Shown here: positions 8,536 to 20,634 of the stretch, one piece after another
How positions within the stretch are numbered: the stretch's first letter is position 1
Layout: each line of letters begins with the position of its first letter
NCBI GenBank assembly: GCA_002951815.1
Contig: CP019454.1
Coordinates: 1,488,001-1,552,000 of the forward strand
DNA from: Sulfobacillus thermotolerans
Lineage (GTDB): Bacteria > Bacillota > Sulfobacillia > Sulfobacillales > Sulfobacillaceae
DNA length: 64,000 nt
Direction of reading: 5' to 3'
Position numbers and translations under genes: made by a program
The notes under the pieces: model-generated
Database searches by the model: none
Told to the model about the DNA's origin: nothing
Seen by the model: only the letters and a program-made list of their open reading frames with translations

Positions 8536-9513
8536 GTGTTGCCGCTATATATGGTGGGCGAGGTTGATTGGCTCACCACCCAAGCCTTATATCATGCGTT
8601 GCCGACGATGCATGAAGAAGGAATCGTTCTATGCTGGCCGCGCGATCCTTATGTATCCATCGGTTGTCATCAGGATTGGCAAGAATTTGACGCCCGTGCT
8701 GGGCTTCCTGTGGTAAGGCGGCATGTAGGAGGTACGCTAGTTTATTTAGATCAGCACCAAATTTTTTTTCAAGTTATTGTCAATGCATCCCACCACGTTG
8801 CAAAAAAGTCCCCGCAGCAATGGTACCAATATGCCTTAGCGCCTGTTGTGTCGTATTTGCAGACCATGGGATTTGCTGCGATGTTCAAGAGCCCTGCCGA
8901 TATTCTCATCAATAACCGAAAAATTTCTGGGAATGCAGGGGGTCAAATTGAAGATAGTGTCGTTATTGTAGGGAATATTTTGTTGCGCTTTGACCCCGAA
9001 ATGATGGTCAAAGTGCGAGCGGGCTCCTCTATCTTCAAACACTCCTTTGCAGATGCGCTGGCCCGGCATCTTACCACCCTGGAAGAGCTCAGCGGGCGCG
9101 AGTGGCAACCGGAGACCGTGATGAGGGATTTGGCAACCTCTTTCCATCGGCATTGGGACACCGTGCTGCGCGAGGTTCCTTGGGACCGCTGGAACCCGGT
9201 GGTTGAGCAAGTGGGACGCAGTCTACTTCAACCGCGGTGGCTTTACGCACCGGGAATGCGGCCACGTTACCATCAAATCAAAGTGCGGGAAGGGGTGTAT
9301 TTGCGGCAGCCACGTGAAGATGCCTGGTTTCCTGATATTGTGGCGGAAGTGGATACGGAGCGGCAACTATGTTTGCAGATTTGGAACCTGCCGTTTGAGG
9401 TGCCCCTGCCGTTGCCGTACGCGCAAATTGGCGATTACATAGGGGATCCTCATTTACAAGAAGTATTGCTAAGTCTTATGGACCGTTCGACGTCTTCGTC
9501 CTTATTACCGTAA
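8536..9513 (+). CDS. Lipoate-protein ligase A-like protein (first paralogue)
   Basis: Cytoplasmic BPL/LPL-fold enzyme expected to activate an acyl group (octanoate or lipoate) with ATP and attach it to a lysine of a carrier protein. The substrate-binding RRxxGG motif appears as VVRRHVGGTLVYLD near residues 59-72 and the lysine motif as NNRKISGNAGG near 120-130. About 75 residues of C-terminal accessory domain follow. The start is GTG at 8536 with GGGGTGAGG before it; ATG at 8551 is an alternative. It begins an operon with a GcvH-like carrier, a second ligase and LipS1/LipS2, which fits the sLpl/LipS route of lipoate assembly. Which of the two ligases loads which substrate cannot be told from sequence. 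Confidence 0.8.
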   Translation: MLPLYMVGEVDWLTTQALYHALPTMHEEGIVLCWPRDPYVSIGCHQDWQEFDARAGLPVVRRHVGGTLVYLDQHQIFFQVIVNASHHVAKKSPQQWYQYALAPVVSYLQTMGFAAMFKSPADILINNRKISGNAGGQIEDSVVIVGNILLRFDPEMMVKVRAGSSIFKHSFADALARHLTTLEELSGREWQPETVMRDLATSFHRHWDTVLREVPWDRWNPVVEQVGRSLLQPRWLYAPGMRPRYHQIKVREGVYLRQPREDAWFPDIVAEVDTERQLCLQIWNLPFEVPLPLPYAQIGDYIGDPHLQEVLLSLMDRSTSSSLLP

Positions 9514-9574
9514 AGGTCTCTCCCTTGCGGTGTGTCGATATGTTCTGAAAAATCTTTGTGAGGGGTGGGTAAGT

Positions 9575-9985
9575 ATGGCTATCGAACCGATTCATCGGTG
9601 GAAAGTGGTGCCGGGTAGGTTGTACGATAGGCATCATCAGTGGGTGCTTCAAGAGGATGTACTTATTACGGTGGGAGTCACGGATTATACCCAAGATACT
9701 GCGGGCGATATTCTTTATGCGGCACTGCCGGAGCCCGGAACCGTTCTCGTCGAAGGCATGCCTTTTGGTAGTATCGAGTCGGGCAAGTGGGTGGGGCAGT
9801 TATATGCACCTTTTGACGGGGTTGTGATTGTTGCCAATGCTTTAGTGCAAGACGATCCGCAAATACTGAATCGTGATCCGTATGGACAAGGATGGTTAAT
9901 TAAGGCTAGGGCGACGACGTCCTTGGAGAACTTTTTATCAGCGGACGCGTACAGCGCGTGGCTATCCCAGCAGGATGTGTTGTGA
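9575..9985 (+). CDS. GcvH-like lipoyl carrier protein (probable LbpA type)
   Basis: A 136-residue lipoyl-domain protein. The modified lysine lies in IESGKWVGQLYAP (about residues 66-78), and the downstream GcvH signature is clear (LNRDPYGQGWLIKA). Ordinary glycine-cleavage H proteins read ESVK followed by small residues; from memory the ESGKWVG form is typical of LbpA carriers encoded with sHdr sulfur-oxidation genes. I start at ATG 9575, preceded by GAGGGGTGGG, rather than at 9530. The stop overlaps the next start (TGATG). No gcvT or gcvP genes are in the window. It is either LbpA or a true GcvH; the motif and the neighbouring LipS genes favour LbpA. Confidence 0.8.
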   Translation: MAIEPIHRWKVVPGRLYDRHHQWVLQEDVLITVGVTDYTQDTAGDILYAALPEPGTVLVEGMPFGSIESGKWVGQLYAPFDGVVIVANALVQDDPQILNRDPYGQGWLIKARATTSLENFLSADAYSAWLSQQDVL

Positions 9986-11067
9986 TGGACACGTGGCGGA
10001 TGTTGGATTTAGGGCCGTTGCCTGCATGGAAGCAGATGGCGTTGGATAAAGTGGTTATTGAAGCGCGTGCGCGCGATAGCGTGCCCAACACCTTGCGGTT
10101 TATGGAATTTTATCCACCTACAGCGTTAATTGGATATCACCAGAGTGTGGATTTGGAAATAAATAGAAGTCAAGCCGAGCGATTGGGGGTGGAAATCAAT
10201 CGACGCATTACGGGCGGCGGAGCAATTTATATGGATGCCCAACAACTCGGATGGGAGATATGTATGAAGGTAGGTGCGTCTCAGCGCATTCGTCCAGAAT
10301 CGCTCTATCCACAGCTCGCGCAAGTGGTCGTGGAGGCGTTGGGTTCATGGGGCATTAAGGCGCACTTTCGTCCTGTCAATGATGTGGAAGTCGATGGGCG
10401 TAAAATTTCCGGAACCGGTGGGGTTGATTATTATGGCACCGTGATCTACCAAGGGACACTATTACTGGACTTTGATGTCAAGACCATGCTGGAGGTTTTG
10501 CGGCTTCCTGTTGAAAAACTTTCAGACAAAAGTGTCACATCTTTTGCGCAGCGATTAGTAACGATGCGCGAGTTGCTTGGGCAGTCGCCTCCAATGGATG
10601 AGGTCAAAGAGCGAGTGCAAGCGGCTTTGATGCATGTCCTAGGAGTCCGTTTAGTTCCCTCCTCGTTAACAGACTTTGAGGCGGATGCATGGCAGCAATC
10701 GGCCGAAACCTACCGTATGCCGCAGTGGATTGACCGTCGCAAGCCGCCTCAACCGGATGCCAACTATCCGCTTGAAAATCTGACGTATAAAGCCTCTGGT
10801 GGTCTTCTCCGTTTAACCGTGCAAACCAACATGGCGATGACTCACATTAAAACCATTTTTATTACGGGAGATTTTTTTGTCTATCCCGAACGCGCTGTCT
10901 TGGATTTAGAAGCGGCCTTGAAAGATGCCCCATTAGAGATCCATGCCTTGCAAAGCATCGTACAGCAACATTACCGCACAGGCTATCAATATCTAGGAGT
11001 CAAAGAGGAAGACTGGATTGCCGCATTGTCTCCTCTTTGCCTCAATCGCCGGGAGGGATCGCTATGA
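9985..11067 (+). CDS. Lipoate-protein ligase A-like protein (second paralogue)
   Basis: A 360-residue BPL/LPL-fold ligase, 1-base coupled to the carrier gene (TGATG). It shows the canonical acyl-binding motif INRRITGGGAIYMD near residues 70-83 and the lysine motif VEVDGRKISGTGG near 131-143. The C-terminal 110 residues (from about residue 250) match the LplB-like accessory domain needed for acyl-adenylate formation, so the protein looks like a natural LplA-LplB fusion, the sLpl(AB) layout. It differs clearly from the first ligase in this operon (GGGA against GGTL in the motif). The start at 9985 is fixed by coupling and by AGGA upstream. Confidence 0.85.
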   Translation: MDTWRMLDLGPLPAWKQMALDKVVIEARARDSVPNTLRFMEFYPPTALIGYHQSVDLEINRSQAERLGVEINRRITGGGAIYMDAQQLGWEICMKVGASQRIRPESLYPQLAQVVVEALGSWGIKAHFRPVNDVEVDGRKISGTGGVDYYGTVIYQGTLLLDFDVKTMLEVLRLPVEKLSDKSVTSFAQRLVTMRELLGQSPPMDEVKERVQAALMHVLGVRLVPSSLTDFEADAWQQSAETYRMPQWIDRRKPPQPDANYPLENLTYKASGGLLRLTVQTNMAMTHIKTIFITGDFFVYPERAVLDLEAALKDAPLEIHALQSIVQQHYRTGYQYLGVKEEDWIAALSPLCLNRREGSL

Positions 11068-12200
11068 ACGATGACGCATATCGCCACCAAATTGAGCTGC
11101 GTCCCCAACCACACGTTGCCCATGAGAGTCCGACTCATGTGATGACGTCGTTGGCTGGGGCCATAACATTAGGTTTCGAAAAGGGAAAGTTCGCTCGGCC
11201 AGAAACGGTGTTAAGGGGTCTTAATATTTTAATGACCTATCAAGAAAATTGTGTCGCGAACTGCTCTTATTGTGGGATGTCTCGGGAGCGCAGGGTGCCG
11301 CGTGAAGACGCCACCTTTATTCGGGTCAAGTGGCCCATTGTGGCAGTTGACGATCTCATAGAGCGCAGTGTTCAAGTGCCCCATCAAATGCGCCGATTGT
11401 GCGTCGGTATGTTGGCAAATCATCAGTCGTTTGACCATTCGTTGCAGATTATCCGGCAATTTCATGAGCGTACCCCGTTGTTGATTTCTGGTCTCATCAC
11501 GGCGTCCTTAATCAAGAAGCGTGATGATTTGCAAAAAATCCGCGACGCGGGGGCTGATCGAGTCGATATTGCTATTGATGCCGCGACCCCTGCGCTCTTT
11601 GAGAAGCATCGGGGCCGACCTGTCAAAGGGCCTCATCGATGGGAGCATTTTTGGTGGGTAACAGAGGAGGCCACGAAAGTATTCGAACCGGGCACTGTGG
11701 GAATTCATTTAGTGGCGGGGTTAGGAGAAACAGAACAAGAACTGCTGGAGGCCTGTCAAAAAGCTCAAGATATGAATGTTGTCACGCATTTATTCTCGTT
11801 TAATCCGGAACCGTCAACACTGTTAGGGGATTATCCGCAACCGTCAATGGGTCATTATCGTCGATGCCAACTTGGACGTTACCTTGTCAATGAGTTGGGA
11901 GTATCTGTCCATCAGTTTCGTTTCAATGCGCAAGGGCAGGTTATCGATTTTGGCGTAGACCTTGATGTGCTTGCGCGAATTATTGAATCAGGGCAACCGT
12001 TTATGACGTCGGGATGTCCCGATGAACAAGGAGAAACCGCATGCAATCGGCCTTATGGTAACGGCCGCCCCAGTGAAAAAATTCGCAACTTCGCCTTTCA
12101 GCCGGGACCGCAAGATATCCAAGACATTCGCGCGCAATTATGGACGGATTGGGCCGGGGAGGACATATATCAGGAGGTGGGGCATGAACTGGAGCGATAG
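11064..12200 (+). CDS. lipS1: Radical SAM lipoyl synthase component LipS1
   Basis: A 378-residue radical SAM protein with the 4Fe-4S site CVANCSYC (CX3CX2C) near residues 63-70. Later cysteines (GCPDEQGETACNRP, near 320-335) could bind a second, auxiliary cluster, which sulfur-inserting enzymes need. LipS1 and LipS2 together insert sulfur into octanoyl groups on a carrier protein and replace LipA, as shown for archaeal homologues. The ATG at 11064 follows GGGAGG and overlaps the previous stop (ATGA). Assignment as LipS1 rather than LipS2 rests on length and gene order. Without the operon context it could be mistaken for a biotin-synthase-like protein. Confidence 0.75.
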   Translation: MNDDAYRHQIELRPQPHVAHESPTHVMTSLAGAITLGFEKGKFARPETVLRGLNILMTYQENCVANCSYCGMSRERRVPREDATFIRVKWPIVAVDDLIERSVQVPHQMRRLCVGMLANHQSFDHSLQIIRQFHERTPLLISGLITASLIKKRDDLQKIRDAGADRVDIAIDAATPALFEKHRGRPVKGPHRWEHFWWVTEEATKVFEPGTVGIHLVAGLGETEQELLEACQKAQDMNVVTHLFSFNPEPSTLLGDYPQPSMGHYRRCQLGRYLVNELGVSVHQFRFNAQGQVIDFGVDLDVLARIIESGQPFMTSGCPDEQGETACNRPYGNGRPSEKIRNFAFQPGPQDIQDIRAQLWTDWAGEDIYQEVGHELER

Positions 12201-13137
12201 ACCGCTAGAGGAGCTTATCACCAGGGCGGGGATGCTATCGCAGAATTACTTTGCCCGGTCGTTGACCGTTTCGGCGCCGAGTCAGAAACACTATGATACG
12301 GGGATCTATCAAAATCACCGTACTGCTTTTGCGTCCATGAGCGTCACGGGCAATCATTGTGCACTGCAATGTGACCACTGTGGCACAAAAGTCCTCGAAG
12401 GGATGACGGTTGCGAATAGTCTTAAGCGCTTTCGTGACGCGGCGGATACCTTGGTTGCCAACGGGACGGATGGGGTTTTGATTAGCGGAGGATGTTTAGA
12501 AGACGGGTCGGTGCCTTTAGAACGGTTTGTAGAGGATATTGCGCGTCTTAAAGACCGAGGGCTTACCGTTTTAGTTCACACCGGATTGGTAAAACGTTCG
12601 GTCGCTCACGCTTTGAAGATGGCGGGTGTGGACCAAATTCTTTTAGACATTATTGGTGCCGACGAAACCATTCACCGGGTGTATCATCTCGACAAGACGA
12701 CCCGAGATTACCGTGAGTCCCTGGCGATCTTGCGAGAAGAGGGTTTAAATGCAGTGCCGCATGTCGTGGTTGGATTGCACTTTGGTGCGTTGCTGGGAGA
12801 ATTTAATGCGTTGGAAATGATCCGTGATGAACGCTGCCAACAACTGGTCATTGTGGCGTTAATGCCGTTGCCGGGGACTCCCATGGCAGGGGCTGCACGG
12901 GTTTCAGCCGAGGATGTCGCGCGTGTAATTGCGGCGGCTCGGATTATGATGCCGTCCACGCCTATTTCGTTGGGGTGTGCAAGGCCGCCTGGTCCAGACA
13001 AATTGGCTATGGAAGCATACGCGATTGAATGCGGCGTGCAAAGTATTGCCTACCCCTTGGCCGGGACCATTCGCTATGCGGAAGCTAAAGGGTATACCAT
13101 TCACTACCACGAGAAATGTTGTTCGCTGCTCGCTTAA
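12184..13137 (+). CDS. lipS2: Radical SAM lipoyl synthase component LipS2
   Basis: A 317-residue radical SAM protein with the CX3CX2C motif CALQCDHC near residues 59-66, a GG-type motif ISGGCLEDGS near 102-111, and a C-terminal CC pair (HEKCCSLLA). The open frame extends upstream to 12022, but the ribosome site AGGAGG before ATG 12184 fixes the start, giving a 17-base overlap with lipS1. Paired with LipS1 it should complete sulfur insertion at C6 and C8 of protein-bound octanoate. Its cysteines at the C-terminus are candidates for an auxiliary cluster ligand; that is inference. Confidence 0.75.
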   Translation: MNWSDRPLEELITRAGMLSQNYFARSLTVSAPSQKHYDTGIYQNHRTAFASMSVTGNHCALQCDHCGTKVLEGMTVANSLKRFRDAADTLVANGTDGVLISGGCLEDGSVPLERFVEDIARLKDRGLTVLVHTGLVKRSVAHALKMAGVDQILLDIIGADETIHRVYHLDKTTRDYRESLAILREEGLNAVPHVVVGLHFGALLGEFNALEMIRDERCQQLVIVALMPLPGTPMAGAARVSAEDVARVIAAARIMMPSTPISLGCARPPGPDKLAMEAYAIECGVQSIAYPLAGTIRYAEAKGYTIHYHEKCCSLLA

Positions 13138-13213: not shown

Positions 13214-13527
13214 CTTGGGACGGTAGGCAGGGATGCCTGTAAATCCCAAGGGTCGCCGATAATCCAAAGGAAGGATCTTGCATTTGATATCCATCGGCTT
13301 GCGCTCTCGAACACCTCATTCAAATGAACTCGTGCCTTCGAGGGGTACGTAGTCAGGGGACAAAGTCACCCTGTTTTTAGGATTGTCGCAGATAGCCTTT
13401 TTTATTAATTTAAGCATTGGCAATACAAATGCACCCACTTTTAAAGAACTAGTTCTATGGGATCGCGTTTTTCGGGCAAACGCTTTATGCCTGGCGTTTG
13501 TCGCAATGTCTGTGAGGAGGTGGCACG
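13214..13527 (+). promoter_or_regulatory. Leader region of the terminal oxidase operon, with a 12-bp palindrome
   Basis: No gene here. A possible promoter is TTGTCG (13383-13388), 17 bases, TAATTT (13406-13411). Downstream of it, AGAACTAGTTCT (13445-13456) is a perfect palindrome, about 72 bases before the cupredoxin start, a position suited to an operator. The ribosome site GGAGG stands before the GTG at 13528. Confidence 0.4.
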
Positions 13528-14166
13528 GTGGATAACAAAAGTCCATTAGAGACAGAATTGCCTGAAGAATCTACGTGGAGTCGGCGCCAATTTCTGTGGG
13601 GTATGGGAGGCGTTGCGGCGGCGGGAGCCGTCACATTGTTTGGTCGGCAGGCGCTTGTTAGCGCGGCTCGAGGGGTCTTTGGGTCTCCGGTGGACTCTGG
13701 CAATCTTAACTTTTACGCCTATGACTATTATTACATTCCCAATTATATGACGTGGCGTGTTGGGGATTATATGCGCGTGACGTTCCAAAATCAAAGTCAT
13801 ACGCACTGGCACGAATGGACCATTGGTCGCCATCTTAATGAAGCATATTTCCAAGCCTTTGGGGAAATGGATGCGGATGCGTGGCAGACGGATTTTTGGG
13901 ATGGTGTCCCTGTCACCTTGAGTAACCCATATAACATTGACAACTTCGTCCCCAACAAAGCCATTGTCACTTACGAGGGTCCCAAATATCTCTATAACAT
14001 TGCGAGCGGCGGGGACTTTAGTCCCACATTGAAGCCGGGAGGAAGTTTGACATTGTCGTTTCAGGTTCCCAATAAACCGGGCTTGTGGGATTTTGGATGC
14101 TTTGTTCAGCAGTACATTCACTACCGGACCGGTATGCGCGGCAAACTGATGATTTTGCCAGCCTAA
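13528..14166 (+). CDS. TAT-exported blue copper protein (cupredoxin, sulfocyanin/rusticyanin-like)
   Basis: A 212-residue protein with a twin-arginine signal (WSRRQFLWG, residues 17-25, then a hydrophobic stretch), so it is exported folded. The type-1 copper ligands are visible: a histidine within HTHWHEW (91-95) and C191, H198 and M203 near the C-terminus (C-x6-H-x4-M). The loop between Cys and the second His is longer than in plastocyanin or rusticyanin. It opens the oxidase operon, so it probably delivers electrons to the CuA site of subunit II in place of cytochrome c. GTG start with GGAGG nearby. An alternative is an accessory cupredoxin subunit of the complex itself. Confidence 0.8.
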   Translation: MDNKSPLETELPEESTWSRRQFLWGMGGVAAAGAVTLFGRQALVSAARGVFGSPVDSGNLNFYAYDYYYIPNYMTWRVGDYMRVTFQNQSHTHWHEWTIGRHLNEAYFQAFGEMDADAWQTDFWDGVPVTLSNPYNIDNFVPNKAIVTYEGPKYLYNIASGGDFSPTLKPGGSLTLSFQVPNKPGLWDFGCFVQQYIHYRTGMRGKLMILPA

Positions 14167-14169
14167 GGG

Positions 14170-15018
14170 GTGATGGCGGAAGGGAGAAGGGTGTCTGTGG
14201 ATGTTTTAGGGTTTGGCATTGTGTGGGTCGTTCTCTCCATTCTCGGAGAAATGGGCGTGCGGGTCATTATTCACAATGACCCGATGTACTATACCGCTTC
14301 CAATATTGGACTCATGGTCGAAAGTGCAATGGATTTTCTGATTGTGGTGCTCGTTCCGATTTTCATTTTCGTTGGGCTCACGCTCGTGTGGTCGATGATT
14401 CGATTTACGGTGAAACGCGGAGAAACCCCGACGTTACCGGAAAAATTTGCCCGCAGTAACAAATGGTTTGTAGGAAGCTGGGTCATTGGCAGTATAGGCA
14501 TCAATTTATTGTTCTTCCTGCATCCTACGGCGTCCGCGACCGAACAATTCTTTGCGATGGAAAATCCGCAAGCGGCCGCCAACAAACAAGCCATTATCGT
14601 AGACGTCACCGCGCGCCAGTGGGAATGGATTTTTAGCTACCCGCAGTACGGGCTGACGCAGACCTTGGATGCCAATGGTCAAGATCAATTGGAATTGCCG
14701 GTGGGGCGGTCGGTGAAATTTGTGTTGCGCTCGTATGACCCGTATCACACCTACGACCAATATGTGGATGTGATTCATAGTTTTTGGGTGCCGTCTTGGG
14801 GTATTAAAGAGGACGTCATTCCAGGTGAGGCGCGTTCCATTTATATTACGCCCACCAAGATCACCTCGTTCGCGCAAAACCCGATGTCTCGCGTACAGTG
14901 CGCCGAAGTCTGCGGCCCCGGACACCCATGGATGGAAGCGCCGTTAAATGTTGTATCGTCGAGCCAGTTTGCTAAATGGATTCAGTACGAGAAAAAGCTG
15001 CAAAGTGGTCTGGGTTAA
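14170..15018 (+). CDS. Cytochrome c oxidase subunit II (CuA)
   Basis: Membrane-anchored CuA subunit of a haem-copper oxidase. Two or three hydrophobic segments lie within residues 10-120, followed by a cupredoxin domain facing outside. The CuA ligands are C244, C248, H252 and M255 (CAEVCGPGHPWM), plus a histidine in VIHSFWVPSWG. The tryptophan-rich ARQWEWIF segment typical for electron entry is present near residue 150. The start is uncertain: GTG 14170, ATG 14173, or GTG 14191 after AAGGGAGAAGG. It lies three bases after the cupredoxin gene. Confidence 0.9.
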   Translation: MMAEGRRVSVDVLGFGIVWVVLSILGEMGVRVIIHNDPMYYTASNIGLMVESAMDFLIVVLVPIFIFVGLTLVWSMIRFTVKRGETPTLPEKFARSNKWFVGSWVIGSIGINLLFFLHPTASATEQFFAMENPQAAANKQAIIVDVTARQWEWIFSYPQYGLTQTLDANGQDQLELPVGRSVKFVLRSYDPYHTYDQYVDVIHSFWVPSWGIKEDVIPGEARSIYITPTKITSFAQNPMSRVQCAEVCGPGHPWMEAPLNVVSSSQFAKWIQYEKKLQSGLG

Positions 15019-15070: not shown

Positions 15071-16987
15071 ATGGCACAAACCACTATGGTGCCGGCCGCC
15101 ACTCGTGCACCCAAGGCGGGGAAACGCAATGTCATGCCGCCCGTCTTAAGGGGCTTTTTGTGGGCCGCTATTGGCTTTGTGGTCGTCAACACGTTTGTTG
15201 ATATTGTCGACCCGTTCCGCGGCCACCCGTTTGTGACGGGCCCATCCGCAACATTTGGATGGGTAGCTGCGGTGATTGGATGGCTACTGGGCGTAGGAGT
15301 TTGGGAATCGGTGGCGTTGCCCCTATTTGGATATAAGGACCGTTGGCACGAAAAGTCTACGGGATGGCGGCGCTATTTCGAATATAGTACCGACCATAAG
15401 GTTATTGGGTTGCAATATCTTGGATCAGCTATGGGGGGATTCCTCATCGCCGGCGCTGTGGCTATGTTGATGAGGATTCAGCTTATGAGCGACCACCTGA
15501 CAATTTTCCACTATCCGAGCAATTACCTTACCGCGGTTGGTATTCACGGAACGATTATGATGTTTTCCGTGGCCAACGTGGCTCTTCTCGGTGGGTTCGG
15601 CAATTACATGGTGCCCATGATGATTGGGTCTCGGAGCACTGCCTTCCCCAAATTGTCCGGCATTAGCGTCTGGTTAGTACCGGCGGGAATTCTTACGGTA
15701 CTATTCAGTCCATTGTTAGGGGCTTGGACGACAGGGTGGCGTGGGTATGAGCCGTTGGCCAGTCAGGATGCTAATGGGATTCTATACTACTACCTTGGTG
15801 TCGCAGCGCTGACAATGTCTACATTCATCGTCGGACTCAACATGGTGACCACCGTGATGTTCCGCCGGGCCCAGGGAATGACATGGAGTCGATTGCCCTT
15901 ATTTGCGTGGGGACAGCTCACCGTGGGATTGCTCGTGCTCATATGGATTCCGGAAATTCAGACGACGTTCGTCCTCGCGTTGCTGGAAAAACTGGTGCCG
16001 TTTAATTTCTTTGCTGCTACGGGCAGTGTAATGAGTTATCTCGAGTTGTTTTGGCTGTTTGGTCATCCTGAGGTCTATATGATTGCGGTGCCGGCGTTCG
16101 CGTTGTGGAATGAAATTATTCCCGTGATGTCGCAGAAGTCGCTGTTTGCCCGCGACTGGGCTGTTATCGGATTGGTTTTCGTAATGATGCTGAGTGGCTT
16201 GGTCTGGGCGCACCACATGTTTACGAATATCCGCAACAGTGAACTTTTGCCCTTCTCCTTCTTCACGGAAATGATATCGATTCCCACGGGGTTTGCCTAC
16301 ATGGCGGCGATTGGGACCATGTGGAAGGGAAAAATTCGCCTGACGACGCCCATGCTCTTGATTTTGATGAGTATGTTCAACTTCCTTATCGGCGGATTGA
16401 CAGGGGTTTTGTTGGCTGACCCCATGGTCAACTTGCAGTTGCATGATACGTTTTATGTTGTAGGACACTTCCATTACACCGTGATTGGCAGTTTAGTCTT
16501 TACAGGCTTAGCCGGTGTGTACTATTGGCTGCCTAAAATGTCGGGGCGGTTGTACAACGAGTTTTGGGGTAAGTTCTTGTCGATTGTGTTGTTCCTCACC
16601 TTCAACCTGACCTTTAGCCAGTTCTTCCTGTTGGGACTGCATGGGATGAACCGGTGGGTGCCTGCCTATCCTCAGTATTTGCAACCGATGAATTTTGAAG
16701 TCTCGATTTTCGCGTTCTTCCTTGGCGCTTCGTTCCTCGGTCACTTCATTCACATCTTCTGGGCATGGGCTAAAGGCGCTAAAGCCACGGAAAACCCATG
16801 GAATGCGCGGACCCCGGAATGGTTTACGACGTCGCCGCCGCCTCGTTACAACTTCCCCGTCGAGCCGGAAATCGTGTCGAGTCTATACATTTATGGGTCC
16901 AAGCAGCCAGTGTCGGTGCAATTCCCCGCAGAGCAGGAGTTGGCTGCGACTAAAGATCCTCAAGATGAAGGAGGGCCTCACGAATGA
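15071..16987 (+). CDS. Cytochrome c oxidase subunit I
   Basis: Catalytic haem-copper subunit reducing O2 to water. Ligands are visible: H159 (low-spin haem), H332 with Y336 (CuB, GHPEVY), H381 and H382 (CuB), H466 (high-spin haem) and H468 (low-spin haem). About 100 extra N-terminal residues with two hydrophobic helices precede the normal core. E334 of GHPEVY is present, but the D-channel aspartate (IGAxDxAFP in standard enzymes) is S189 (IGSRSTAFP) and the K-channel lysine (PTGIK) is A409 (PTGFA). AAGGAGGG precedes the ATG. The stop overlaps the subunit III start. Confidence 0.95.
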   Translation: MAQTTMVPAATRAPKAGKRNVMPPVLRGFLWAAIGFVVVNTFVDIVDPFRGHPFVTGPSATFGWVAAVIGWLLGVGVWESVALPLFGYKDRWHEKSTGWRRYFEYSTDHKVIGLQYLGSAMGGFLIAGAVAMLMRIQLMSDHLTIFHYPSNYLTAVGIHGTIMMFSVANVALLGGFGNYMVPMMIGSRSTAFPKLSGISVWLVPAGILTVLFSPLLGAWTTGWRGYEPLASQDANGILYYYLGVAALTMSTFIVGLNMVTTVMFRRAQGMTWSRLPLFAWGQLTVGLLVLIWIPEIQTTFVLALLEKLVPFNFFAATGSVMSYLELFWLFGHPEVYMIAVPAFALWNEIIPVMSQKSLFARDWAVIGLVFVMMLSGLVWAHHMFTNIRNSELLPFSFFTEMISIPTGFAYMAAIGTMWKGKIRLTTPMLLILMSMFNFLIGGLTGVLLADPMVNLQLHDTFYVVGHFHYTVIGSLVFTGLAGVYYWLPKMSGRLYNEFWGKFLSIVLFLTFNLTFSQFFLLGLHGMNRWVPAYPQYLQPMNFEVSIFAFFLGASFLGHFIHIFWAWAKGAKATENPWNARTPEWFTTSPPPRYNFPVEPEIVSSLYIYGSKQPVSVQFPAEQELAATKDPQDEGGPHE

Positions 16988-17553
16988 CGAACCAACCTGT
17001 GAGCATGGGTTCTGCGCCGCGCAAAGGGCGGCCGGATTCGAGTCGTCGGATGGGGCGCTTTGGAATGTTCATGTTCATTGCCAGTCAATTGGTGCCCATT
17101 ATCGTGTTAATCGATGTACGCTACCTCTTTGTGGGAAGCTACGTCTCCTCCTCCGCAGACCAACCGGTTGCCCTTTTAGTGGCGGTTCTCATGGCCGTAA
17201 GTGGGATTATGGCGTGGACCGTTCGGGGATCGGCGATTCGCGGGGTGGACCAAGTCGCCCGGGTGAAATGGATGGTGCTGTTGGGGGCTGGGGCGTTACT
17301 GGGCGTGCTGTACCAATGGTCTGTGCGGTATCTGTCGCCTGGTACACGTTATGGTGAGGTGTTCTTCACCATGACGGGATTTGCCGTGTTTTATCTCGTT
17401 GTGGGCCTTATCGCATTGCTTTCATATATCTCGCGGGTGCGGTTTGTGGCGTCCGCCGATGATGGGTATTGGCATATGGAGGCTGTGTCATTATTGTGGG
17501 CAGGAATTTCAGTGATTTGGCTTGTGGTATACATTGTACTCTATCTGTTGTAA
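16984..17553 (+). CDS. Cytochrome c oxidase subunit III
   Basis: A 189-residue protein with five hydrophobic helices, the short bacterial form of subunit III. The family signature near the C-terminus is YWHMEAVSLLWAG (compare YWHFVDVVWL in standard enzymes), followed by the last helix. It starts at ATG 16984, overlapping the stop of subunit I by four bases (ATGA), with AAGGAGGG upstream. It should stabilise the catalytic core. Confidence 0.85.
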   Translation: MTNQPVSMGSAPRKGRPDSSRRMGRFGMFMFIASQLVPIIVLIDVRYLFVGSYVSSSADQPVALLVAVLMAVSGIMAWTVRGSAIRGVDQVARVKWMVLLGAGALLGVLYQWSVRYLSPGTRYGEVFFTMTGFAVFYLVVGLIALLSYISRVRFVASADDGYWHMEAVSLLWAGISVIWLVVYIVLYLL

Positions 17554-17577: not shown

Positions 17578-17769
17578 ATGGGTAACAACTTTTGGCCCCA
17601 CTTGCCCTTGCGGATTCCCTACAGCATTGGGATGGCCCACTGGTGGGATCCGATGTGGTGGATCTTTCAAATTGTGGTGATGACGGTATTATTGATTACC
17701 TTGCGCAAGGTCGCGATGGACATCGATCGGGAACGCGCAGAAAAACGTTCGTCTAACGCCAACCGTTAG
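17578..17769 (+). CDS. Small oxidase-operon membrane protein (subunit IV-like)
   Basis: A 63-residue, single-helix membrane protein (hydrophobic residues about 27-44) with a Trp/His-rich N-terminus (WPHLPLRIPYS, MAHWWDPMWW) and a charged basic tail. GGGAGG precedes the ATG. As the last gene before the operon terminator it is probably a small accessory or assembly subunit of the oxidase. The sequence does not match a family I can name. Confidence 0.7.
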   Translation: MGNNFWPHLPLRIPYSIGMAHWWDPMWWIFQIVVMTVLLITLRKVAMDIDRERAEKRSSNANR

Positions 17770-17850: not shown

Positions 17851-19206
17851 GTGGACGAAGAACGGAAGATGCCAAAACAGCGCTGGGACGCACACCGTGT
17901 CACAAGCGCCCTCCACGAACGGCAGGCCAAAGGGTTGTCGATGGCATCAGAGCGGGTGCGTATTGAAGACAGCGCCTTATGGGCAGCCGCTCGCCGCTAT
18001 TATAAAAGTTGGGCGAAAGCGCTTGAGGCTAGTGACATTGCGGAGGAATTAGGCCACAAAGGGCCTAAGGAGGAGCGGTGGTCTCGTGAACGCATCATCG
18101 CTGAAATCCAATCCTATGCCGAACGTGGGGAACCGCTCTATGCTCATCACATGCGATCTCAAAACAACAAACTGGTTTCTGCCGCGACCTATTATTTTGG
18201 ATCGTGGAGCCGGGCCCTCGAGGCAGCCGGATTCAACGCCGAGGCCGTCCGGGCGTCCATACCGTGGTCGGCGGAACGTGTTCAGACCTTGCTTCAGGAT
18301 GCGTATGCGTCGGGCGCCGACCTCCGTGATAGTTCGGCGAGGTTTTGGAACCGTGCGCTTTACCGTGCCGCGTGTGACCATTTTGGATCATGGAGTCGTG
18401 CTGTGGAACTGGCAACGGGATCTCAAGCGGTGCGGGCAGAGCGGTGGACGAAAGAACGGGTGTTGGCGTTGCTTCGCAACTATTTGAGTCATGGGTTTAC
18501 AGTGAAAGAAACGTTAGCGTATCATCCACGTTTGTCGCAAGCGATTGCTGATACCTTTGGCGATTGGGAAAATGTTGCTAGGGAATTTGGTCCCACGCCC
18601 GACTGGGACCATAATCAGGTGAGCGTGAGGTTGCGCCGATTCCGTGAAGCTAGAGGGTGGTCGCAGGCGGATTTAGCCGAGGCTATTCGCTGGCCGTTGT
18701 TTCTAGTAGAATCTTATGAGAGCGGACTGGTTCCCGTGCCGTGGGCGGCGGTATGGGCGTGGGCAAAGGCAACCTCGCACCGCAGTGAAGCCATTCGGTG
18801 GGCTAAACGTGGCTTAGGATTGTCTTTTCGTCGGCGGTTATCGGCATCCAAGGCTGTCAAGAAGGATGTAACTACCGCCAGTAACTCGCCGTGTTTTGTT
18901 GTAGGCCAAAACGGCCATATTCAATTTTGGAGCGAGTCGCTTAGTCAATTAACTGGGTTATCGCGAGAACGTGTCGAGGGTCAATTATGTGCCGACATTG
19001 TGCGAACGTCGCGCATAGACGGCACACCGTATTGTGGAAGTCCTTGCCCCGTGCGTAAAGAGGGGCTGGGGACGTCCGCTCCGGTGCTGGTCATGTCCGG
19101 GCCAGAGACTAAGGCGCCTGTGCGGTTCCATATGGCTATCGATGGACATTCTGGCGCGATTACGCATTGGGTGGAACCCACGCGCTATCAAGATATTAGG
19201 GGATAG
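17851..19206 (+). CDS. Transcription regulator: four homing-endonuclease-associated repeats, XRE helix-turn-helix, PAS
   Basis: A 451-residue protein with an unusual layout. Four degenerate repeats of about 53 residues (about 11-63, 76-128, 138-190, 198-247) each run from a W(S/T)xER element to FGSWSRALE-like ends, the pattern of homing-endonuclease-associated (HNH_repeat) modules, which bind DNA. An XRE-type helix-turn-helix follows (257-305, RLRRFREARGWSQADLA), then a PAS domain (346-445) with C380, C395 and C399. No nuclease domain is visible. The start is GTG 17851 after GGGAGG; the frame further up runs through the terminator. Next to the oxidase operon and two PAS-LuxR genes with the same cysteine spacing, it probably senses redox state or a bound cofactor. 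Confidence 0.75.
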   Translation: MDEERKMPKQRWDAHRVTSALHERQAKGLSMASERVRIEDSALWAAARRYYKSWAKALEASDIAEELGHKGPKEERWSRERIIAEIQSYAERGEPLYAHHMRSQNNKLVSAATYYFGSWSRALEAAGFNAEAVRASIPWSAERVQTLLQDAYASGADLRDSSARFWNRALYRAACDHFGSWSRAVELATGSQAVRAERWTKERVLALLRNYLSHGFTVKETLAYHPRLSQAIADTFGDWENVAREFGPTPDWDHNQVSVRLRRFREARGWSQADLAEAIRWPLFLVESYESGLVPVPWAAVWAWAKATSHRSEAIRWAKRGLGLSFRRRLSASKAVKKDVTTASNSPCFVVGQNGHIQFWSESLSQLTGLSRERVEGQLCADIVRTSRIDGTPYCGSPCPVRKEGLGTSAPVLVMSGPETKAPVRFHMAIDGHSGAITHWVEPTRYQDIRG

Positions 19207-19221
19207 GTGGGAGGACGTCAT

Positions 19222-19746
19222 ATGTGGAGCAATGTTCCGACGTTTCTCGTCGGGAGTGATTGGCGCATTATGGATATGGATCCTCAAGTGGCCGAATGGA
19301 TTGGCAAGCCCGCGCATGCCACGATTGGGCAATTTTGCTATGAAGCTATTGATGCACAAAACTTGGACGGCTCGCCTTTTTGTCGTCCAGAGTGTCCTTT
19401 ATTGACGGCATTTAAGGAACGCAGAGCCGTTGATGCTGTGGTACGTCTGGGGCCTCAATCGCGAAAGGATTTGCGGGTAGGGGTACACTATGCCATTTTC
19501 GATGATCCGCTCCGGATCTTGCATAGCGTTGTGCCGCTAGAATCAGAGGGCTCATTTCACAGTGTTTTGACTCGCCGTCAATATGATATTATTGAGAAAC
19601 TTGCGCGTGGATTGTCCCATGGGGAGATCGCACAACAATGCCATGTGGCACCTAGTACAATTGAAACGCATTTGAAGCGAATGCGGTCGATGTTGAGTTG
19701 CCACTCGGATCGTGAATTAATTGCGTGGTATCGGGAACATCATTAG
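19222..19746 (+). CDS. PAS-LuxR family transcription regulator
   Basis: A 174-residue regulator with an N-terminal PAS-like sensor (residues 1-100) and a C-terminal LuxR/GerE helix-turn-helix (about 118-165, LTRRQYDIIEKLARGLSHGEIA, APSTIETHLKRM). No receiver domain is present, so it likely responds directly to a ligand or redox signal. Cysteines C39, C54 and C58 form C-x14-C-x3-C, the same spacing as in both neighbouring regulators. Start ATG 19222 follows GGGAGG; it lies 15 bases after the repeat-XRE-PAS gene, so the two are probably co-transcribed. Confidence 0.8.
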   Translation: MWSNVPTFLVGSDWRIMDMDPQVAEWIGKPAHATIGQFCYEAIDAQNLDGSPFCRPECPLLTAFKERRAVDAVVRLGPQSRKDLRVGVHYAIFDDPLRILHSVVPLESEGSFHSVLTRRQYDIIEKLARGLSHGEIAQQCHVAPSTIETHLKRMRSMLSCHSDRELIAWYREHH

Positions 19747-19755
19747 GTGTGAAGG

Positions 19756-20295
19756 TTATTCGTTGCGAGCTGTTGGAGAAGAGGATGCACTGGCTGCTAT
19801 TTGGGCGAGTGCTTCTTGTTCGGTGCGGACACCAAGAATTTCCCGCACACGTTTGATGTGCGTATTCACCGTGCTGAGCTGGATATGAAGTTCCTTGGCG
19901 ATGGCAGCCCGTGAATATCCTTGGGAACGCAGGGCAAAAATGGCCTGTTGACGAGGAGTTAGGTGCCATGTCGGAGAGACGACCTGGTCGGAGAGTGTGA
20001 GCCAGTGTACAATAACCGGCGGAGTATCCAACATGGTGACACGCAATTCCGCAATTCGGTGACCCGTGTACCGAGTAGGAACTAAGATGTTCGACGGGAC
20101 GGTGCCCGTTGTCAGCAAGGTACAAGAGGCCTGGCAAAACACACTGCCATCGAGATTGGCGCCTCGTATCACGTCATAGCAACGTCGACCCAAGACGGCT
20201 TCTTCCGAGAGGCCCGTCATTTGACTGATCGCAGGGTTCCAATGCTCAATGGCTAAATCGTTATTAACAATAAAGCAGGCTCCATTGCTCCACAT
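19756..20295 (-). CDS. PAS-LuxR family transcription regulator (convergent paralogue)
   Basis: A 179-residue paralogue of the convergent regulator: both begin MWSN and both carry C39, C54 and C58 at identical positions inside the PAS domain. The LuxR helix-turn-helix is near residues 118-165 (LTPRQQAIFALRSQGYSRAAIA, STVNTHIKRVRE). I prefer ATG 20295 (GTGAGGTG upstream) over GTG 20307 because it aligns with the paralogue. The C-terminus is rich in Ala and Ser. The two genes end only nine bases apart. Confidence 0.8.
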   Translation of the reverse strand: MWSNGACFIVNNDLAIEHWNPAISQMTGLSEEAVLGRRCYDVIRGANLDGSVFCQASCTLLTTGTVPSNILVPTRYTGHRIAELRVTMLDTPPVIVHWLTLSDQVVSPTWHLTPRQQAIFALRSQGYSRAAIAKELHIQLSTVNTHIKRVREILGVRTEQEALAQIAASASSSPTARNE

Positions 20296-20634
20296 GTTTG
20301 CGTGCACCTCACAGGGTAAGACTCTTTTGCATTATCTCGTAGACGAGGCTTGATGACCAACGAAATAACTAAAAATTGGTTATAAAAGTTGTGGCTGAAA
20401 TCATTACACGGAAGTATAGTCGGATTCAACTAGTATGAAATTATTATATCACAAGGGCTTTCTCTCTGTCTAATCTACTGAGAAGGGGTAAAGCCTGGGA
20501 GAGAATGGCGATGCGATATAACTCCATAACCTGATGGCCGGAAGTCATTCGAGGGGGTTTAAAGGCGAAAGCGGCACGGATATCGGTCATGTTTTGCGGG
20601 CTTGGCCTTATAATCCAGACAACAAGCTCGGCAA
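20296..20634. other. Intergenic region upstream of the minus-strand PAS-LuxR gene
   Basis: No credible gene. The AT-rich part 20370-20455 (including ATTATTATATC) is the likely minus-strand promoter area for the regulator, though I cannot assign boxes. A 10-base word ACTAGTATGA (20429-20438) recurs at 20945-20954. Confidence 0.35.

Follow-up and report, generated by a model that had tools for sequence, protein, structure and literature searches.

A repeat-XRE-PAS protein as a candidate regulator of a cupredoxin-like/cytochrome oxidase operon in Sulfobacillus thermotolerans

Introduction

The proteins closest to the regulator described here combine four repeats with an XRE domain. They include the plasmid proteins WP_173600033 (Brevibacillus) and WP_021298697 (Alicyclobacillus), both annotated as helix-turn-helix transcriptional regulators, the proteins of the IMG/VR viral contigs L081 and L082, and those of the sister-genus loci L049, L059 and L060. 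Like our regulator, they carry the repeats first and then the XRE domain, at about 25-38% identity to it. Unlike our regulator, they have no PAS domain and are found on plasmids, on viral contigs or next to ECF sigma genes, not with cox genes. The repeats belong to the Pfam family PF18780 (HNH_repeat), and in contrast to some other proteins of this family, the regulator has neither a nuclease nor a helicase partner domain.

Two further systems are comparable in part. Caur_2278 (3pxp), the best Foldseek match of our full model (E 2.7e-4), also has a DNA-binding domain and a PAS domain, but it lacks the repeat array, and at a whole-chain TM of 0.15 the likeness is one of domains only. WhiA resembles the regulator in that a homing-endonuclease-related part is joined to a helix-turn-helix. 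On the other hand, this part of WhiA has a LAGLIDADG fold instead of HNH-associated repeats (PMC3781837). We also know of no PAS domain in WhiA. In our literature searches, the PF18780 repeat appeared in a single passing table entry, and no paper was found on the combination of XRE, PAS, cysteine and redox.

The genome of S. thermotolerans Kr1 comprises 3,317,203 bases (PMC6803676). Here we analysed a 64,000-nucleotide stretch of the species' contig CP019454.1 (positions 1,488,001 to 1,552,000), hereafter the window; all coordinates refer to it.

Results

The regulator gene occupies positions 17851-19206 of the forward strand, as assigned from Pfam and orthologs. It starts with a GTG at 17851, has GGGAGG directly 5' of this codon, stops at 19206 and encodes 451 amino acids. 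Over the whole protein, Pfam matched PF18780 at 51.2 bits (cut-off 26) and HTH_31 at 33.3 bits (cut-off 27), while the PAS_9 and PAS matches stayed under their cut-offs, and no nuclease family was found by the Pfam and NCBIfam scans. The full-length AlphaFold model (mean pLDDT 77.5, pTM 0.29) shows the repeats, then five XRE helices and then a PAS core; the placement of the units relative to each other is not confident, either in this model or in that of residues 8-250 (mean pLDDT 86.4, pTM 0.43). An initial annotation of this DNA had proposed a repeat array with XRE and PAS domains and without a nuclease, and these scans and models agree with it. The regulator is a novel form among XRE-PAS regulators.

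The array lies on the forward strand and has a period of 60-65 residues, made up of units of 50-53 residues and linkers. Repeat 1 (17884-18042, residues 12-64) runs from WDAHRV to YKSWAKALE, repeat 2 (18079-18237, residues 77-129) has the sequence FGSWSRALEAAG, repeat 3 (18265-18420, residues 139-190) carries FGSWSRAVE and repeat 4 (18445-18594, residues 199-248) the degenerate FGDWENVAR. The initial annotation had described four repeats of about 53 residues, each ending in a motif like FGSWSRALE; the four units stand, but the exact motif occurs in repeat 2 only, with repeat 3 nearly matching it. Tested singly against PF18780, repeat 2 passed the family cut-off (40.5 bits), whereas repeats 1 (12.6 bits) and 3 (15.8 bits) fell below it and repeat 4 gave no match, so that the profile recovers the proposed repeats only in part. 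Repeats 1 and 3 were assigned by internal similarity and the models, repeat 1 showing four helices in AlphaFold. In both AlphaFold models, repeat 4 shows the same helix pattern as repeats 1 to 3, giving four equal four-helix units, and its alignments to repeats 2 and 3 beat 500 of 500 shuffles (z 7.0 and 8.1, respectively). We count it as a repeat because of this internal similarity and the models. The repeats are strongly conserved in sequence, and in repeats 3 and 4 there is no net positive charge, the net charge being about zero.

Structural searches with the repeats returned little. Foldseek found no match of the array alone in the PDB at E 0.001 or better, and in BFVD a single match, to an uncharacterised siphovirus protein (E 3.9e-4). 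All VIA-align matches of the repeat models to solved folds were weak (Z at most 4.3) and scattered, and included TPR and other helical repeats as well as TetR-type DNA-binding domains; as all stayed under Z 5, we assign no fold to the array. Searching solved structures by profile gave a match to the XRE part alone and none to the repeats.

The XRE part (18604-18816, forward strand, residues 252-322) is a Cro/C1-type helix-turn-helix. As a separate piece it matched HTH_31 at 37.9 bits, and its model superposes on 3eus_B with Z 11.6 over 74 residues (rmsd 2.2). The C-terminal domain (18877-19185, forward strand, residues 343-445) matched PAS_9 at 23 bits, under the cut-off, and in the model it has a PAS fold, aligning with known PAS structures at Z 11-12 and rmsd 2.3-3.1 over 95-105 residues. 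The heme-PAS domains of FixL and EcDos are among the tied best folds, and PAS domains with other ligands tie as well. The cysteine-bearing PAS domain noted initially was confirmed: its four cysteines (C348, C380, C395 and C399) are invariant in eight orthologs, as is H439, and C380, C395, C399 and H439 are invariant across 22 PAS domains of the three regulators encoded at the locus. This Cys3-His set suggests that the domain may sense a redox or metal signal.

Orthologs were found in seven of the eight genus members searched, those outside the window's genome being 42-61% identical to the protein of the window; the one genome without an ortholog is 61% complete. A family-wide profile search added one ortholog, in G420 of another genus. 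In a midpoint-rooted tree of the repeat-XRE part, the genus's PAS-bearing proteins group as a single clade (100/99), separate both from four-repeat-XRE proteins that lack PAS and from repeat proteins that lack XRE. PAS-free four-repeat-XRE proteins are present in further families of the phylum, on Brevibacillus and Alicyclobacillus plasmids and on the viral contigs L081 and L082; the Brevibacillus protein WP_173600033 reads identical to that of L081, and among named phages the XRE part alone of L081 was matched. In sister genera (L048, L049, L059 and L061), the four-repeat-XRE gene was seen by eye to be divergent to an ECF sigma/anti-sigma pair. From this tree, with its midpoint root, the repeat-XRE combination is probably the older unit, which PAS would have joined later in the Sulfobacillus line.

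Planctomycetota, WOR-3 and other groups likewise have repeat-only proteins. One genus holds several copies of three-repeat proteins that lack XRE (L144-L148; genomes G417, G420, G422 and G423), some of these copies with stop codons, and a protein of SF2 helicase/PLD type (L002, G000:C1:646505) contains a sub-threshold PF18780 match.

In all nine operons found in eight genomes, the regulator is the last gene after those for a cupredoxin-like protein, coxII, coxI, coxIII and a small protein. In the window these genes lie on the forward strand: the first gene (13528-14166), assigned by eye as a cupredoxin-like protein with a TAT signal and lacking a Pfam match; cytochrome oxidase subunits II (COX2, 14170-15018) and I (COX1, 15071-16987); a putative subunit III, assigned by position and likewise without a Pfam match (16984-17553); and a small conserved protein of 63 amino acids (17578-17769). 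In G006 (L045), an insertion of about 5.7 kb separates coxIII from the small gene. Downstream, PAS-LuxR regulator 1 (19207-19746, forward strand, likely ATG at 19222) abuts the stop codon of the regulator, and PAS-LuxR regulator 2 (19756-20307, reverse strand) is convergent to it; this pair (19207-20307) is kept in seven operons of the genus and has the Cys3-His set in common with the repeat regulator. Just 5' of the oxidase operon, positions 8536-13137 hold genes for two LplA-type ligases, a GCV_H-like protein and two radical SAM proteins (one with BATS), a set that we take to resemble the lipoate-assembly set of sulfur-oxidising sHdr systems.

Upstream of the oxidase operon, the forward strand carries a candidate operator dyad, GGGGACA-AAG-TCACCCT (13356-13372), and, 25 bp downstream of the dyad start, GATTGT (13381-13386), a -35-like element or third half-site. 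We compared 30 regions upstream of cupredoxin-like genes, nine with the regulator and 21 without. The regulator-linked promoters align poorly apart from a common dyad, RGGGGACA-N3-TGTCCYCY. A dyad matching at 11-14 of 14 positions, combined with GATTGT at 25-26 bp from the dyad start, was present in 9/9 regulator-linked promoters, which include two near-identical copies, and in 0/21 paralogous promoters without the regulator, which are a subset of the paralogs. The best of the latter reached 11 of 14 dyad positions, once, and lacked the GATTGT spacing. The dyad thus co-segregates with the regulator gene.

Among the 34 genomes of the family, exact GGGGACANNNTGTCSYC lies at the oxidase-operon promoter in G001 (both copies), G003, G004, G006, G007 and G420, and all remaining exact matches fall within ORFs; the subset of single-mismatch matches that we looked at in the genus also fell within ORFs. 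The genome of the window and G005 have a degenerate dyad in common (11 of 14 positions), and its sole exact match in each genome is the oxidase promoter. Across the window, a loose dyad pattern gave four matches against 2.4 expected, which is not beyond chance, and the case for the dyad therefore rests on its conservation between genomes. A second conserved stretch of the leader (13395-13460) follows a putative -10 element and ends in ACTAGT; it may serve as an additional binding site or as an RNA element. The shared ECF-sigma/XRE promoters of the sister genera hold conserved stretches of their own in the alignment, in which visual inspection did not reveal the dyad.

Discussion

We have described a four-repeat, XRE and PAS architecture, its linkage to an oxidase operon, and a promoter dyad that co-segregates with the gene. 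We consider it reasonably probable that the protein regulates transcription of its own cupredoxin-like/cytochrome oxidase operon as a one-component system, acting through the dyad, the repeat arm and the PAS domain. The parts of this model that we infer are binding, the role of the repeats, the ligand and the sign of regulation. During promoter recognition, the XRE domain would bind RGGGGACA-N3-TGTCCYCY, probably in dimeric form, just 5' of the -35-like element, and the four-repeat arm would contact neighbouring DNA, giving a longer and more stable site. The Cys3-His set of the C-terminal PAS domain would sense the redox or metal state and thereby switch the protein. Considering that the dyad is located just 5' of the -35-like element, an activator fits better than a repressor.

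Which protein of the locus binds the dyad has to be weighed against the neighbouring PAS-LuxR pair. LuxR-type domains commonly bind dyads, and PAS-LuxR1 and/or PAS-LuxR2, which adjoin in seven of nine operons and have a PAS domain with the same Cys3-His set, may bind this dyad and control the oxidase operon. In that case, the repeat-XRE-PAS protein would have another target or would modulate the LuxR proteins. We regard this as unlikely, since G420 keeps the cox operon, the repeat-XRE-PAS regulator and the dyad, and a search of this genome, which is 90% complete, did not find PAS-LuxR1/2. Judged from these gene contents, the repeat-XRE-PAS protein is the likeliest, predicted binder of the dyad. 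Contig G420:C18 (L142) is 99.6% identical to G001:C94 (L114) over 13.4 kb including the oxidase operon, so that the two, although assigned to two genera, count as one lineage; the identity is possibly due to a recent transfer or to a mis-binned contig in one of them.

The role of the repeats is a separate question. It is quite possible, if below an even chance, that they act as a helical scaffold on which the protein oligomerises or binds partner proteins, without touching DNA, the XRE domain alone reading the site; this reading is compatible with the regulator model and rivals it solely over the repeats. The TPR and helical-repeat folds among their scattered matches and the near-zero net charge of repeats 3 and 4 are consistent with a scaffold, as is WhiA, whose homing-endonuclease-like part is not the one that reads DNA (PMC3781837). 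The strong conservation of the repeat sequences and their alignments, though weak, with DNA-binding domains of the TetR type (Z at most 4.3) argue against it. That the regulator is an exapted remnant of a homing endonuclease, as was initially suggested, appears very improbable. The Pfam family is named after nuclease-associated repeats, and some haloarchaeal plasmid matches carry an HNH endonuclease annotation. However, PF18780 was found at E 1e-5 in 23 of 398 sampled genomes of the phylum, and among 20 of its proteins scanned in this sample one contained HNH_3 and four ResIII/helicase domains, with no nuclease family in the others. The initial statement that such repeats usually accompany HNH nucleases therefore does not hold in this sample, and the name of the family suggests, in this case at least, a closer tie to nucleases than is seen. 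Furthermore, the nearest relatives are nuclease-free four-repeat-XRE or repeat-only proteins, which leaves exaptation from a homing endonuclease unsupported. The accompanying proposal of a nuclease-free sensor-regulator tied to the upstream oxidase fared better, in that operon linkage and a candidate operator were found for it.

PF18780 repeats are widespread, yet our searches found little on them among solved structures or in the literature. For those of the regulator, there is an evident candidate target along with a candidate site that is conserved, which makes a role in DNA recognition testable. As a tentative and rather doubtful extension, HNH-associated repeats might be modular DNA-reading arms; four of them with an XRE dimer would then recognise a longer stretch of promoter, covering the dyad, GATTGT and perhaps the conserved leader as far as ACTAGT, and the Cys3-His PAS domain would tune oxidase expression to redox or metal conditions. 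For an iron- and sulfur-oxidising acidophile of biomining, the regulator model would provide a candidate regulator of an oxidase operon.
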